Positions 27,424 to 30,849 of a DNA stretch of 64,000 nt are shown in pieces. The translations under genes were made by a program, and so were the position numbers. The notes beneath the pieces are model-generated. The model made no database searches, had not been told where the DNA came from, and saw nothing but the letters and a program-made list of their open reading frames with translations. Source of the stretch: Henriciella mobilis (lineage in GTDB: Bacteria > Pseudomonadota > Alphaproteobacteria > Caulobacterales > Hyphomonadaceae); contig NZ_QWFZ01000003.1 of the NCBI RefSeq assembly GCF_003576315.1, positions 248,001 to 312,000 on the forward strand, in the 5' to 3' direction. Numbering within the stretch: position 1 is the first letter of the stretch; each line of letters opens with the position of its first letter.

Positions 27424-28362
27424 TTGGCACGCAATCGCAAGAAGAAGGGCCTGCCCGTTCATGGCTGGCTGAATGTCGACAAGCCCGTGGACGTGACCTC
27501 GACCCAGGTGGTCGGCATCCTGAAGCGGCTGTTCAACGCCCAGAAGGCCGGTCATGGCGGCACGCTGGATCCGCTGGCGGACGGTATCCTGCCGATTGCC
27601 TTCGGCGAGGCGACCAAGACCGTGCAGTGGGCGATGGACGCCGACAAGGAATATGTCTTCACCATCGAATGGGGCCGCTCGACCGATACGCTGGACGGCG
27701 AGGGCGAGGTGATCTCGACCTCCGATACCCGCCCCGAGCGCGCGGCCATCGAGCAGGCGCTGGAGCGTTTCGAGGGCGAGATCGCGCAGATCCCGCCGAA
27801 ATATTCCGCCATAAAGGTCGATGGCGAGCGCGCCTATGATCTCGCCCGCGACGGGGAGAGTTTCGAGATCCCGTCCCGCCAGGTCGTCGTGCATGAGGCG
27901 CGCCTGATCGAGATGCCGGACGCCGACCATGCCGTCTTCCATATCCGGTCCGGCAAGGGCTTCTATGTCCGCGCGCTGGCCCGCGACCTTGCCGCCGCGC
28001 TCGGCTGCGACGGCCACGTCTCGAAGCTGCGCCGCATCCGGGTCGGCGTGATGCATGAGGATGAGGCGATTGCGCTGGACGCGCTGGAGGCGATGGACCG
28101 CGAGGCCTTGCTTGAGCTGCTGCTGCCGGTTGAGGAAGTGCTCGAGGATGTGCCGGATGTCGAGATTTCAGACGAGGACGCTGCCGCCATCCGCCAGGGC
28201 CGCGAGGTGATGCTGATGCCGCATGTCGTCGAGCGCTGGCGGGCGGAGAAGAACCCCGATCCGGAGGACCGGCTCGCCCTCGCCATGGCCGGGGAGACCG
28301 CCGTCGCCATGGGCGAAATCCGCGCCGGCCGCTTCCAGCCGGTCAGGGTTTTCCAGCTTTAG
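27424..28362 (+). CDS. truB: tRNA pseudouridine-55 synthase TruB
   Basis: Makes pseudouridine at U55 in the T loop of tRNAs. The catalytic-aspartate motif is AGHGGTLDPLADGILPIAFG at about residues 40-59. Further family blocks are QIPPKYSAIKVDGERAYDLAR and GFYVRALARDLAAALG, with a C-terminal PUA-like part. The TTG start is supported by AGGAGG at 27413-27418. A bidirectional terminator follows at 28391. Confidence 0.95.
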   Translation: MARNRKKKGLPVHGWLNVDKPVDVTSTQVVGILKRLFNAQKAGHGGTLDPLADGILPIAFGEATKTVQWAMDADKEYVFTIEWGRSTDTLDGEGEVISTSDTRPERAAIEQALERFEGEIAQIPPKYSAIKVDGERAYDLARDGESFEIPSRQVVVHEARLIEMPDADHAVFHIRSGKGFYVRALARDLAAALGCDGHVSKLRRIRVGVMHEDEAIALDALEAMDREALLELLLPVEEVLEDVPDVEISDEDAAAIRQGREVMLMPHVVERWRAEKNPDPEDRLALAMAGETAVAMGEIRAGRFQPVRVFQL

Positions 28363-28390
28363 GCCGCAGGCGCGCGCTCGCAACGCAACA

Positions 28391-28426
28391 AAAAAGGCTG
28401 CCCCTTCTCACGTGGGCAGCCTTTTC
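28391..28426. terminator. Bidirectional terminator between truB and the small minus-strand gene
   Basis: Eleven-base-pair stem AAAGGCTGCCC/GGGCAGCCTTT with a ten-base loop, flanked by an A run on the left and TTTT on the right. It can therefore end both truB and the convergent YRG-motif gene. Confidence 0.9.
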
Positions 28427-28480
28427 CGTGTCAGGGCTATCTGATGGGGTCGAGGATAGCCTCGGGTTTTCGCCATGGGC

Positions 28481-28663
28481 TCAGGCGAAACGGTGTCCGC
28501 GGTAGACGAGATGGCGGGTGCCGGTCTCGATCTCCACAGGGTGCGTGCCGTCATGGGCGACACCGCGGTATACAAGGTGCGGCTTGCGCATCTGGTCTGC
28601 CAGCGTCTGGCGGGCCTGAGGGGCGTCTTTCACTACATGGCCGCGATAGATCAGCTTGGTCAT
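28481..28663 (-). CDS. Small protein with three YRG motifs (DUF4278-like)
   Basis: A 60-residue protein in which the motif Leu-x-Tyr-Arg-Gly recurs three times: KLIYRGHVV at the start, HLVYRGVAHDG in the middle and HLVYRGHRFA at the end. This L-x-YRG pattern is the hallmark of DUF4278, known mainly from small cyanobacterial proteins of unknown function. ATG 28663 has AAGGAGAG six bases upstream. It is divergent from the RHH-P-II gene and shares its AT-rich promoter region, so coregulation is plausible. The family link is from motif only. Confidence 0.6.
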   Translation of the reverse strand: MTKLIYRGHVVKDAPQARQTLADQMRKPHLVYRGVAHDGTHPVEIETGTRHLVYRGHRFA

Positions 28664-28730
28664 CTTCACTCTCCTTCGGCTTTTTTGCCGGCCTTTCGGG
28701 GCCGGTTCGCCTCGTCTGTTACGCTGAAGA

Positions 28731-28781
28731 TATGTAAGATGTGTAAGTTTGTCAACATGTATATTTTACGCATTTGCGTAA
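28731..28781. promoter_or_regulatory. Candidate operator in the divergent YRG / RHH-P-II promoter region
   Basis: AT-rich island in a GC-rich genome. It contains the perfect palindrome TTACGCATTTGCGTAA (28766-28781) and two direct 9-base repeats, TATGTAAGA and TGTGTAAGT (28731-28748). RHH proteins typically bind short repeated or palindromic half-sites, so the neighbouring RHH-P-II protein may bind here. That link is inference. Confidence 0.45.
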
Positions 28782-28894
28782 CTTGCGATTCTGTGGGATT
28801 GAGAGGGCTCCAGGCGCCCAGATTTGCCGCGCCCGGCAGGGCCATCCCCCGGCCCGGACAAGCGTAAAAGCGTAGACAAGAAGAGACCGTCCCG

Positions 28895-29392
28895 ATGGAA
28901 AAACTCGACCAGCGAATCCAGCTTGTCGCCTCCAGTGAATTCTCGAAAACCGTCGATGAGTGGCGCCGCGGCCAGTCGGACCTGCCATCGCGTTCAGAAG
29001 CCATCCGCCGCCTGGTCGATCTCGGCCTGCGCTATGAAAGGGAACACCCGATGCACATGATCACCGCCGTCATCCGCCCGCACAAATATGACGACCTGCG
29101 CGAGGCGCTGCTGCAGCTGGGCGTCGAGGGCATCACGGTGACACAGGTGAAGGGCTTCGGCCGCCAGCGCGGCCAGACCGAATTCTATCGCGGGGCAGAG
29201 TACACCACGACGGAAGTGCCGAAGCTGCGGCTCGAAATCGCCGTCTCCAGCGCGATCATGAACCAGGTGATCGACACCATCCAGTCGGTCGCCTCGACCG
29301 GCAAGGTCGGCGACGGCAAGCTGTTCGTCCACACGCTCGACCAGGTTGTGCGCATTCGCACCGGCGAGAAGGACGAACTGGCAATCGGGTAG
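28895..29392 (+). CDS. P-II signal protein with an N-terminal ribbon-helix-helix DNA-binding domain
   Basis: 165 residues in one frame. Residues 1-48 read as a ribbon-helix-helix domain: strand DQRIQLVAS, helix A SEFSKTVDEWRRGQ, helix B PSRSEAIRRLVDLGLRY. Residues 53-165 are a full P-II (GlnB/GlnK) protein with T-loop GFGRQRGQTEFYRGAEY (both Tyr positions kept), B-loop TGKVGDGKLFV and C-loop RIRTGE. P-II proteins bind ATP/ADP/2-oxoglutarate and normally act on protein partners. No amtB follows. ATG 29051, with AGGGA upstream, could also give a separate P-II from internal initiation. Confidence 0.85.
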   Translation: MEKLDQRIQLVASSEFSKTVDEWRRGQSDLPSRSEAIRRLVDLGLRYEREHPMHMITAVIRPHKYDDLREALLQLGVEGITVTQVKGFGRQRGQTEFYRGAEYTTTEVPKLRLEIAVSSAIMNQVIDTIQSVASTGKVGDGKLFVHTLDQVVRIRTGEKDELAIG

Positions 29393-29398
29393 GCTGGC

Positions 29399-29493
29399 TC
29401 CACCCCGACCCTCCCCAGCGGGGAGGGGGATGAGGTTGCACCCGGCTGAGCTGTCTGCACCCCCTCCCGCCTGGGGAGGGTCGGGGTGGGGCT
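29399..29493. repeat. BIME-like repeat pair 1
   Basis: Two inverted REP units. Each has a hairpin CCCTCCCC/GGGGAGGG with a short loop and an outer arm CCCCACCCCGA (or its complement). They are separated by about 30 bases. The pair fills the gap between the RHH-P-II stop and the end of the minus-strand gene. Confidence 0.9.
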
Positions 29494-30201
29494 CTATGTG
29501 CGCGCCAGATAGACGGTCTGGGTGAAGGGCTTGTCCTGCAGCGGATTGTGGAAGGTGACCGGCTCGCTCCAGGCGTTGCTAAAAACCTTCGCCATGCGGG
29601 CCACGAAAGCCTCGTCCGCACGCGCATCGGACCACAGACCCATCAGGCCGCCGGGCTTCAGGTGGCGGGCGAGGCGCGCAAAGCCCTCTTCAGAGTAGAA
29701 ACTGCCGCTGCGCTGATCGAGCAGCCAGTCCGGCGTGTGGTCGATGTCGATCAGGATCGCATCCTGCGGCCCGCCGAAGCCTTCATCAGAGGCGGCCAGC
29801 GCAAAGAAGTCGCCTTCAACGACGCGGCACCTCCTGTCGGCGGCGAGCGGCGGATCGAGCGGAACGAGGCGTTTCTCGTGCCACTCGATGACAGGGGCGA
29901 GCAGCTCGACCACCTGCAGCCGACCAACGCGCGCATCCTCCAGCACGGTGGCTGCGGTATAGCCAAGGCCGAGCCCGCCAACCACGACATCCCAGCCCTC
30001 TGCCGGCGCCTCGCCTAGCGCCGCAAGACCGAGCTGCGCCAGCGCCACCTCGGACGCGGTAAACAGGCTCGACATCAGATGCTCGTCACCGAGCAGGACT
30101 TCCCAGACATCCTTATCGAGCGACAGGATGCGCCGCCGGCGCAGGCTGACGGCCCCTATATCGGTGACCTGATAGTCGAGTTCTTCGAAAAGTTTGGACA
30201 T
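29494..30201 (-). CDS. Spermidine-synthase-like Rossmann methyltransferase-fold protein
   Basis: About 235 residues with the spermidine synthase/methyltransferase fold: VVVGGLGLGYTAATVLED as the nucleotide-binding motif, VVELLAPVIEWHEKRLV after strand 2, and AILIDIDHTPDWLL at the active-site loop. The short N-terminal strand domain is present (SKLFEELDYQVTDIG). It is shorter than true SpeE, and the substrate is not clear. The upstream part of the frame (to 30300) is encoded by repeat DNA, so ATG 30201 is used. Confidence 0.7.
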   Translation of the reverse strand: MSKLFEELDYQVTDIGAVSLRRRRILSLDKDVWEVLLGDEHLMSSLFTASEVALAQLGLAALGEAPAEGWDVVVGGLGLGYTAATVLEDARVGRLQVVELLAPVIEWHEKRLVPLDPPLAADRRCRVVEGDFFALAASDEGFGGPQDAILIDIDHTPDWLLDQRSGSFYSEEGFARLARHLKPGGLMGLWSDARADEAFVARMAKVFSNAWSEPVTFHNPLQDKPFTQTVYLART

Positions 30202-30253
30202 TGTGCGGGTGTAAAGGGATTTCGGCGCGAACGGAAACCGTGTGTCCAGACAT

Positions 30254-30361
30254 CGCCCCCTCCCTGACCCTCCCCCGAGGGGAGGGAACGCTGACGGCAA
30301 CCTCGCGCGATGATTGCTGCCTGCGCACCCTCCCCGCTTGCGGGGAGGGCTGGGGTGGGGT
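30254..30361. repeat. BIME-like repeat pair 2
   Basis: Same REP family as pair 1, somewhat diverged: a left unit at 30254-30287 and a right unit at 30327-30361 with the hairpin CCTCCCCG/CGGGGAGG and the GGGGTGGGG arm. It lies just upstream of the minus-strand gene start and before rpsO. Confidence 0.85.
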
Positions 30362-30579
30362 GAAGCCTGGTCTGGACCACACCTTTCACCACACCCTGCC
30401 CCTTCCCTTTTGGGGCATTCTGTGCGATGTGCGCCCCCTTGAGGCGAGCGTTCCGCTCTCTAGCCCGGCTGGACGACATCCCGGCCCTGGCTGAATGGCG
30501 CAACCCGTCTCACGAAACCCCGCCCATCACAGGCGAGACAGTGCAACCCGCCGCAAGGCGAAAACGAAAGTAATTGACG

Positions 30580-30849
30580 ATGTCGATCACGGCAGAAAAG
30601 AAAACTGAACTGATCAAGAAATTCGCCCAGACCGAAGGCGATACCGGGTCTCCGGAAGTGCAGGTTGCGATCCTCACTGAGCGGATCAACAACCTCACCA
30701 ACCACTTCCAGACCAACAAGAAAGACCACCATTCGCGCCGCGGCCTGCTCAACCTGGTCGCCACGCGCCGGAAACTCCTCGACTATCTCAAGAGGAAGAA
30801 CGAGAGCCGCTATCAGGCGCTCATTGAAGAGCTGGGGATCCGCCGCTAG
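30580..30849 (+). CDS. rpsO: 30S ribosomal protein S15
   Basis: An 89-residue S15: [40 protein letters not shown] and the rRNA-binding [22 protein letters not shown] are all standard. The ATG at 30580 fits the family; TTG 30574 is only a frame extension. It is followed by a stem-loop and pnp, the conserved rpsO-pnp pair. Confidence 0.97.

Follow-up and report, generated by a model that had tools for sequence, protein, structure and literature searches.

To our knowledge, P-II proteins reach genes only via partners (NtrB, PipX-NtcA, TnrA and the like). A gene of Henriciella mobilis raises the question of whether a P-II protein can act on DNA through a domain of its own. It lies in a stretch of 64,000 nucleotides, here called the window (contig NZ_QWFZ01000003.1, positions 248,001 to 312,000), and was read in a preliminary description as one uninterrupted frame in which a ribbon-helix-helix (RHH) N-terminus precedes a complete P-II domain, with the proposal that the product could couple nitrogen and energy sensing directly to DNA binding.

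The fusion gene and its distribution

The features of the gene, in window coordinates, are:

28895..29392, plus strand: RHH-P-II fusion gene, 165 aa and stop, an open frame from ATG to stop
28895..29050, plus strand: RHH domain, residues 1-52 (weak RHH_1 match, AlphaFold2, invariant columns)
29051..29389, plus strand: complete P-II domain, residues 53-165 (PF00543, matches to solved P-II proteins, alignment)
29051..29053, plus strand: internal ATG (M53), invariant in 29/29 fusions, from which a P-II lacking the RHH domain might be translated

Residues 53-158 match the Pfam P-II family (PF00543) over profile positions 1-102 of 102 (93.6 bits, cut-off 25), solved P-II proteins match residues 53-161 (best E 2.5e-37), and the T-, B- and C-loop motifs are YRGAEY, TGKVGDG and RIRTG, respectively. 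The match of RHH_1 (PF01402) to residues 1-52 alone is weak (13.8 bits, cut-off 20.5), and the full-length protein leaves this family unmatched, PF00543 being the sole Pfam family reported. Among the 27 members of the RHH-domain family, 22 match RHH_1 at E<=1 (best 1e-4), and a sequence search of the RHH alignment against solved structures returned only two matches with E of about 1, taken as chance. The AlphaFold2 monomer model predicts an extended strand with DQRIQLVAS followed by helix A (residues 14-25) and helix B (33-50); as the first P-II strand would start at residue 53, the linker would be two residues long. The full-length model, also a monomer, has pLDDT <50 over residues 1-9.

The 52-aa RHH domain was used as a query against 101 related genomes, H. 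mobilis included, and matched 27 (E<=0.01). Strong matches (E<=1.7e-18, 69–100% identity) occurred in 21, all within the family of the window, and weak ones (31–46% identity) in six. The frame continued into P-II in 21/21 of the strongly matching genomes. A lack of homologues keeping the N-terminal domain, raised in the preliminary description as an objection, is therefore contradicted by 21 of the 101 relatives, and this in-frame conservation rules out a chance read-through into the upstream frame. Together with the open frame and the PF00543 match, it confirms, as far as sequence comparison goes, that the fusion of an RHH domain to a complete P-II domain is real. In Hyphomonas sp. ih12 (G061; loci L045 and L089), the fusion is frameshifted in the last third of P-II, reflecting either a sequencing error or a pseudogene.

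Public genome contigs, in a set that partly overlaps the 101 relatives, provided 67 loci with the RHH domain. A motif scan found 45 fusions contained on one contig (including the frameshifted L089), and L105 and L125 are the two ends of one more, bringing the number of public genomes with a fusion to 46; another 20 loci encode stand-alone RHH proteins. Judged by their titles, the carriers are Hyphomonadaceae (Henriciella, Hyphomonas, Ponticaulis), Parvibaculum, Neomegalonema, Filomicrobium and others, mostly MAGs. In a class-wide sample, at least 27 of 385 genomes match the RHH domain at E<=0.001 and at least six have the fusion, both counts among the matches listed: G000, G420 and four genomes of a small-genome family, f54. 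Up to 17 candidates per genome were scored in this sample, for the RHH domain and for YRG genes (described below) alike, which makes absences in it weak evidence. One locus of this sample (L134) has the RHH domain within a 169-aa frame where the P-II motif is absent. The domain pair, for which a search across alphaproteobacteria had been suggested, is present in all three collections. A literature search limited to CC-licensed PMC papers, by title and start of abstract, found no paper on a P-II/RHH fusion; the pair may already be listed in protein databases.

In an alignment of 29 fusion sequences, 27/52 columns of the N-terminal domain are invariant, compared with 33/113 in the remainder, so the RHH half is more conserved than the P-II half, and the strand residues RIQLV are kept by all 29. 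The P-II domain shares with GlnB/GlnK the whole PF00543 profile and the three loop motifs, T-loop YRGAEY included, but differs in the added N-terminal RHH domain and in having an acidic residue, Glu107 in >=90% of the 29 rows, ahead of the VPK/IPK/TPK motif. When 43 distinct fused P-II domains and 41 canonical ones were placed in one tree, a branch with support of 98/98 puts 43/43 fused domains on one side, apart from the canonical ones, and by this tree the fused P-IIs are one clade. Two genomes carry divergent further P-II-like matches beside canonical and fused ones (L237 in G420, 54.8 bits; L238 in G061, 37.1 bits).

Flanking genes differ among seven fused loci inspected by eye, and the fusion locus is therefore not fixed in place. 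The gene had been placed in an insertion inside truB-rpsO-pnp; this stands for truB, which lies upstream of the fusion, and is provisional for rpsO and pnp, recognised by eye only. The reported lack of an adjacent amtB agrees with our inspection, by eye, of the ORFs of 22-36 kb, among which none was recognised. In Henriciella sp. MO_005.B12, a gene for a caspase-domain (PF00656) protein lies just 3' of the fusion (L061:6509-8692, minus strand).

Several positions of the P-II half are ones that we take to be P-II contacts with ATP and 2-oxoglutarate: G87 F88 G89 R90, Q91, K110, G136 K137 G139 D140 G141, K142 and R153 R155. All of these, and the T-loop tyrosine, are present in the window protein. 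Across the 29 fusions, G87 F88 G89 R90, K110, G136 K137 G139 D140 G141, R153 R155 and Y103 are invariant, and Q91 is kept by >=90% of rows. In 3/29 (L067, L070 and L093, of a Neomegalonema-Rhodobacteraceae group), V or T stands in place of the GDGK lysine (K142), which presumably corresponds to K90 of GlnB, an ATP contact. Because most of these residues are kept, it is plausible that ATP/ADP and 2-oxoglutarate control the protein and that Tyr103 is modified.

A divergent YRG gene and its putative operator

The DNA-binding side of the proposed coupling is supported comparatively, since a candidate operator and a candidate target can be named for it. These are the stronger part of the story and are absent from the preliminary description. 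Upstream of the fusion, and divergent to it, are:

28484..28663, minus strand: YRG gene, 60 aa with three YRG repeats, DUF4278-like (stop at 28481-28483)
28727..28755, minus strand: YRG promoter TTGACA-17-TATCTT, the sole promoter-like site in 28450-29450
28731..28747, minus strand: putative operator, situated in the spacer of the promoter and reaching two bases into the -10 box

The YRG protein of the window falls just under the threshold for DUF4278 (PF14105; 22.1 bits, cut-off 25.3), and 11/11 aligned members of its family match PF14105 at E<=1 (best 2e-9). It and the 16 relatives collected (L156-L172) have three YRG motifs each and lengths of 56-75 aa; in the alignment (n=11), hardly anything is kept outside the repeats. 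A PirA-like identity was considered and is not claimed; the passages of the PirA paper that were retrieved gave no 'DUF'. A tblastn search of plasmids for the YRG protein gave no match at E<=5, and no Rfam element, riboswitch or other, was matched at the gathering threshold in 28300-30700.

A YRG gene is divergent to the fusion at 25/51 parsed fused loci, a count from which L083, L086 and L100, flagged as YRG and by eye encoding receiver proteins, were excluded, and which L133 lies outside. In other Hyphomonadaceae, including Ponticaulis, that have no adjacent YRG gene, the divergent gene is often receiver-like by eye, and the receiver domain (PF00072) was confirmed in two (L100:4899-5927 and L072:4898-5929, both on the minus strand). 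Within f54, two YRG genes (L133) or one (L132) lie upstream of the fusion on the same strand; in L130 and L131, no YRG gene was observed in its vicinity.

The putative operator consists of two direct repeats, CTTACACA and CTTACATA, 9 bp apart, and fills the 17-bp spacer of the sigma-70-type YRG promoter. The sequence TGTGTAA[GC]TT, whose opposite strand occupies this spacer in the window, is conserved upstream of fused genes, and in two AT-rich genomes of f54 it precedes each set of YRG genes (L132 and L133). The pattern RTGTGTAASTTK is matched at 12/12 positions upstream of 38 of 52 fused loci and at >=11/12 in 45, with weaker matches of 10/12 in L077, L104 and L132 and of 9/12 in L071, L106, L131 and L133. 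By comparison, 0/920 control stretches, drawn from L061-L106 (46 fused loci) with the upstream region avoided, reached >=11/12, the best having 10. A set of 36 YRG promoters was gathered by a pattern including TTACACA, which part is conserved by construction; 33/36 share one register, TTGAC-AA-TTACACA, and the three from L067, L070 and L093 read TTGC[AC]A instead and stand one base out of register in the column table. The column counts of the 36 give CTTACACA and CTTRCRYA, nine bases apart.

The genome of H. mobilis has one perfect operator site, and eight further sites with 2-3 mismatches do not exceed the control (nine in total versus 21 for the reversed pattern). Across the 101 genomes, TTGACAAASTTACACA (<=1 mismatch) occurs at 21 sites, of which 19 fall in 13/21 fusion genomes and two in 2/80 others, compared with nine scattered single sites for reversed TTGACAAASTTACACA. 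At 18/19 of the sites in fusion genomes, a YRG or YRG-like gene follows 40-108 nt downstream; in L191, L192 and L199 this gene is degenerate by eye (YRT, FRR, DRG etc. for YRG) and retains the operator. No YRG gene follows the site in L194, which has one mismatch. The association extends to unlinked genes: in genus g3 (the Ponticaulis group), whose YRG genes lie away from the fusion, 9/11 that were read have the operator, L162 and L168 being without it.

YRG genes were detected in 12/101 relatives (E<=0.01), although absences are not firm, since the YRG model missed both genes of G368. The fusion is present in 11/11 genomes with a strong YRG match (hypergeometric 2e-9, relatedness uncorrected), and is absent from G035, where the match is weak (E 0.009). 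The four YRG genomes of genus g1 are the same four that have the fusion. Among the matches listed for the class sample, those at E<=1e-3 (G000, G420 and G444) all come with the fusion, and G169 has a YRG match at E 0.0078, with one stop, and the fusion unmatched.

Nine fusion genomes have no YRG match. Four of these contain a single copy of the short site GCAASTTACACA, in every case at a distance of 44-58 bp upstream of the fusion; the other 5/9 lack it at zero mismatches, and it was found in 0/8 fusion-free genomes. As reversed GCAASTTACACA gave eight sites in the same 17 genomes, the evidence lies in the position of the sites and not in their number. It suggests that the fusion may regulate itself in genomes where no YRG gene was detected.

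Stand-alone RHH relatives

In its predicted strand and helices, the RHH half of the fusion resembles RHH/CopG/Arc-type repressors of a family marked by the motif DLPSRSEAIRRLV, whose stand-alone members, unlike the fusion, have no P-II motif. Aligned stand-alone relatives (n=18) are 51–77% identical to the domain of the window. Within 250 bp upstream of genomic stand-alone loci, two or more matches to the operator unit were found in 11/20, compared with 3/539 control stretches; here and in the unit counts below, overlapping matches of AACTTACA and TTACACA were scored as two units, for loci and controls equally. The unit follows the strand sequence: >=2 upstream units accompany 12/15 stand-alone proteins with the strand R-x-[QN]-x-V and 1/41 with other strands (Fisher 1e-8, with relatedness uncorrected and the grouping chosen after part of the data had been seen). 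From 72 loci entered, 56 distinct domains were scored, the other 16 being duplicates or without the search motif. This covariation of strand and operator is the best indirect sign that the RHH domain of the fusion may still read operator DNA.

RHH relatives are common in viral contigs (43 loci). The operator consensus TTGACAAASTTACACAYVTTRC was not found in viral contigs, and 52 viral loci encoding stand-alone RHH proteins gave no P-II motif; operator units are modestly enriched at viral stand-alone loci (7/44 versus 14/1088). In Asaia (L107:4682-6960), a stand-alone RHH gene lies between a phage antirepressor gene (Bro-N/ANT), divergently oriented and no more than about 0.6 kb away, and a downstream gene for a phage lysozyme, a layout resembling an Arc-type immunity region. 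Another (L118) lies near a tail-collar gene. The RHH half of the fusion looks like a prophage-type repressor domain.

Proposed function and alternatives

The sequences show the fusion itself, its single clade, a conserved operator with sites at YRG promoters both linked and unlinked to the fusion, and the co-occurrence of fusion and YRG genes; DNA binding, repression, ligand gating and assembly are what we infer from them. The fusion is probably a one-component, P-II-gated repressor that acts at YRG promoters through its RHH domain. This domain would bind the 9-bp direct repeats (CTTACACA / CTTRCRYA), which in many lineages sit in the -35/-10 spacer of promoters of small triple-YRG, DUF4278-like genes; several genomes in which no YRG gene was detected have a copy a short way upstream of the fusion. 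The likely sign is repression because the putative operator occupies the spacer between -35 and -10, where a bound protein would block RNA polymerase. The P-II trimer would carry the RHH domain on its two-residue linker. A bound ligand (ATP, ADP or 2-oxoglutarate) or a modified T-loop Tyr103 would shift the pairing of RHH subunits, and this changed pairing would decide whether DNA is held.

P-II proteins are trimers and RHH proteins are dimers. The assembly could consist of two trimers joined through three shared RHH dimers; alternatively, a short P-II made from M53 could dilute the RHH arms. In the latter case, the long RHH-P-II and the short P-II would both be made, and mixed trimers with one or two arms would fix the symmetry mismatch, a rather unlikely possibility, and one compatible with a P-II-gated repressor. 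The invariance of M53 favors it, as does the Shine-Dalgarno-like energy upstream of this codon (mean -5.6 over 51 loci, versus -3.1 for other Met codons and -2.6 for all codons); however, the signal is weak in most Parvibaculum sequences (-2.1 to -2.7), and it may merely reflect Glu codons or an ancestral start. Translation from the ATG at 29051 only would leave the conservation of the RHH domain unexplained.

The RHH domain might also bind DNA and repress the YRG gene with P-II serving as an oligomerisation platform or titration partner, its ligands not gating anything. An RHH domain and an operator would suffice for the conserved sites, the promoter columns and the association of strand with operator, and the replacement of K142 in three of the fusions fits as well, but a scaffold need not keep the ligand residues that are invariant in 29 fusions while the rest varies, and we regard it as unlikely. 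That the RHH domain serves as a tail for protein interaction or targeting, with the operator belonging to another regulator and the fusion contacting partners like any P-II, gains something from the indirect nature of the case for DNA binding and from RHH domains that also bind partner proteins, as in antitoxins, but is highly improbable given operator sites before YRG genes that track the presence of the fusion across genomes, self-sites at the fusion, and a unit that follows strand sequence in stand-alone proteins, all of which leave a second regulator unneeded.

Among known systems, the design of a P-II-gated repressor would be comparable to that of NikR, in which an N-terminal RHH domain is joined to a ferredoxin-like (ACT-type) nickel-sensing domain in a tetramer. 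The sensing half of the fusion is instead P-II, for which a trimer is expected, and membership of the NikR family was rejected, the C-terminal domain being P-II and not ACT-like and nickel-binding.

For the target, the compared system is cyanobacterial DUF4278 and IF17 (PMC6316151, PMC11288750), and the DUF4278 literature found was cyanobacterial only. According to the passages available from PMC6316151, DUF4278 covers the N-terminal part of IF17, a glutamine synthetase inactivating factor, and glutamine-riboswitch aptamers in cyanobacteria are mainly associated with DUF4278 genes. The YRG gene resembles these in its product, which matches PF14105 (the window member below cut-off), and, if the proposal holds, in nitrogen-linked expression, as far as those passages describe it. 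It differs in the control proposed, by a DNA-binding P-II protein, in the lack of an Rfam match around the locus and in its short triple-YRG product.

The YRG repeats, of which the first two mostly read YRGxx[YHF], look like the T-loop apex (YRGAEY), as IYRGTEY in L064 illustrates. The likeness comprises three identical residues and an aromatic residue or His, and is a lead, not a result. It would allow a more speculative reading, which we think rather doubtful, of a scattered alphaproteobacterial module in which an RHH repressor of phage type, once captured by P-II, controls a triple-YRG effector that mimics the T-loop apex and is released in one nitrogen state, as a three-tip decoy competing with P-II trimers for partners such as the ammonium channel, uridylyltransferase or kinase. 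If true, a P-II protein would transcriptionally control its own mimic.

For the P-II-gated repressor itself, a P-II protein that carries a DNA-binding domain, together with candidates for both operator and target, would form a minimal two-gene nitrogen circuit, one that is testable in a single reporter strain. DUF4278/YRG proteins would gain a second, independent link to nitrogen sensing, beside the glutamine riboswitches of cyanobacteria described in the available passages of PMC6316151. The fusion also shows a metabolic sensor joined to what appears to be a prophage-type repressor domain.
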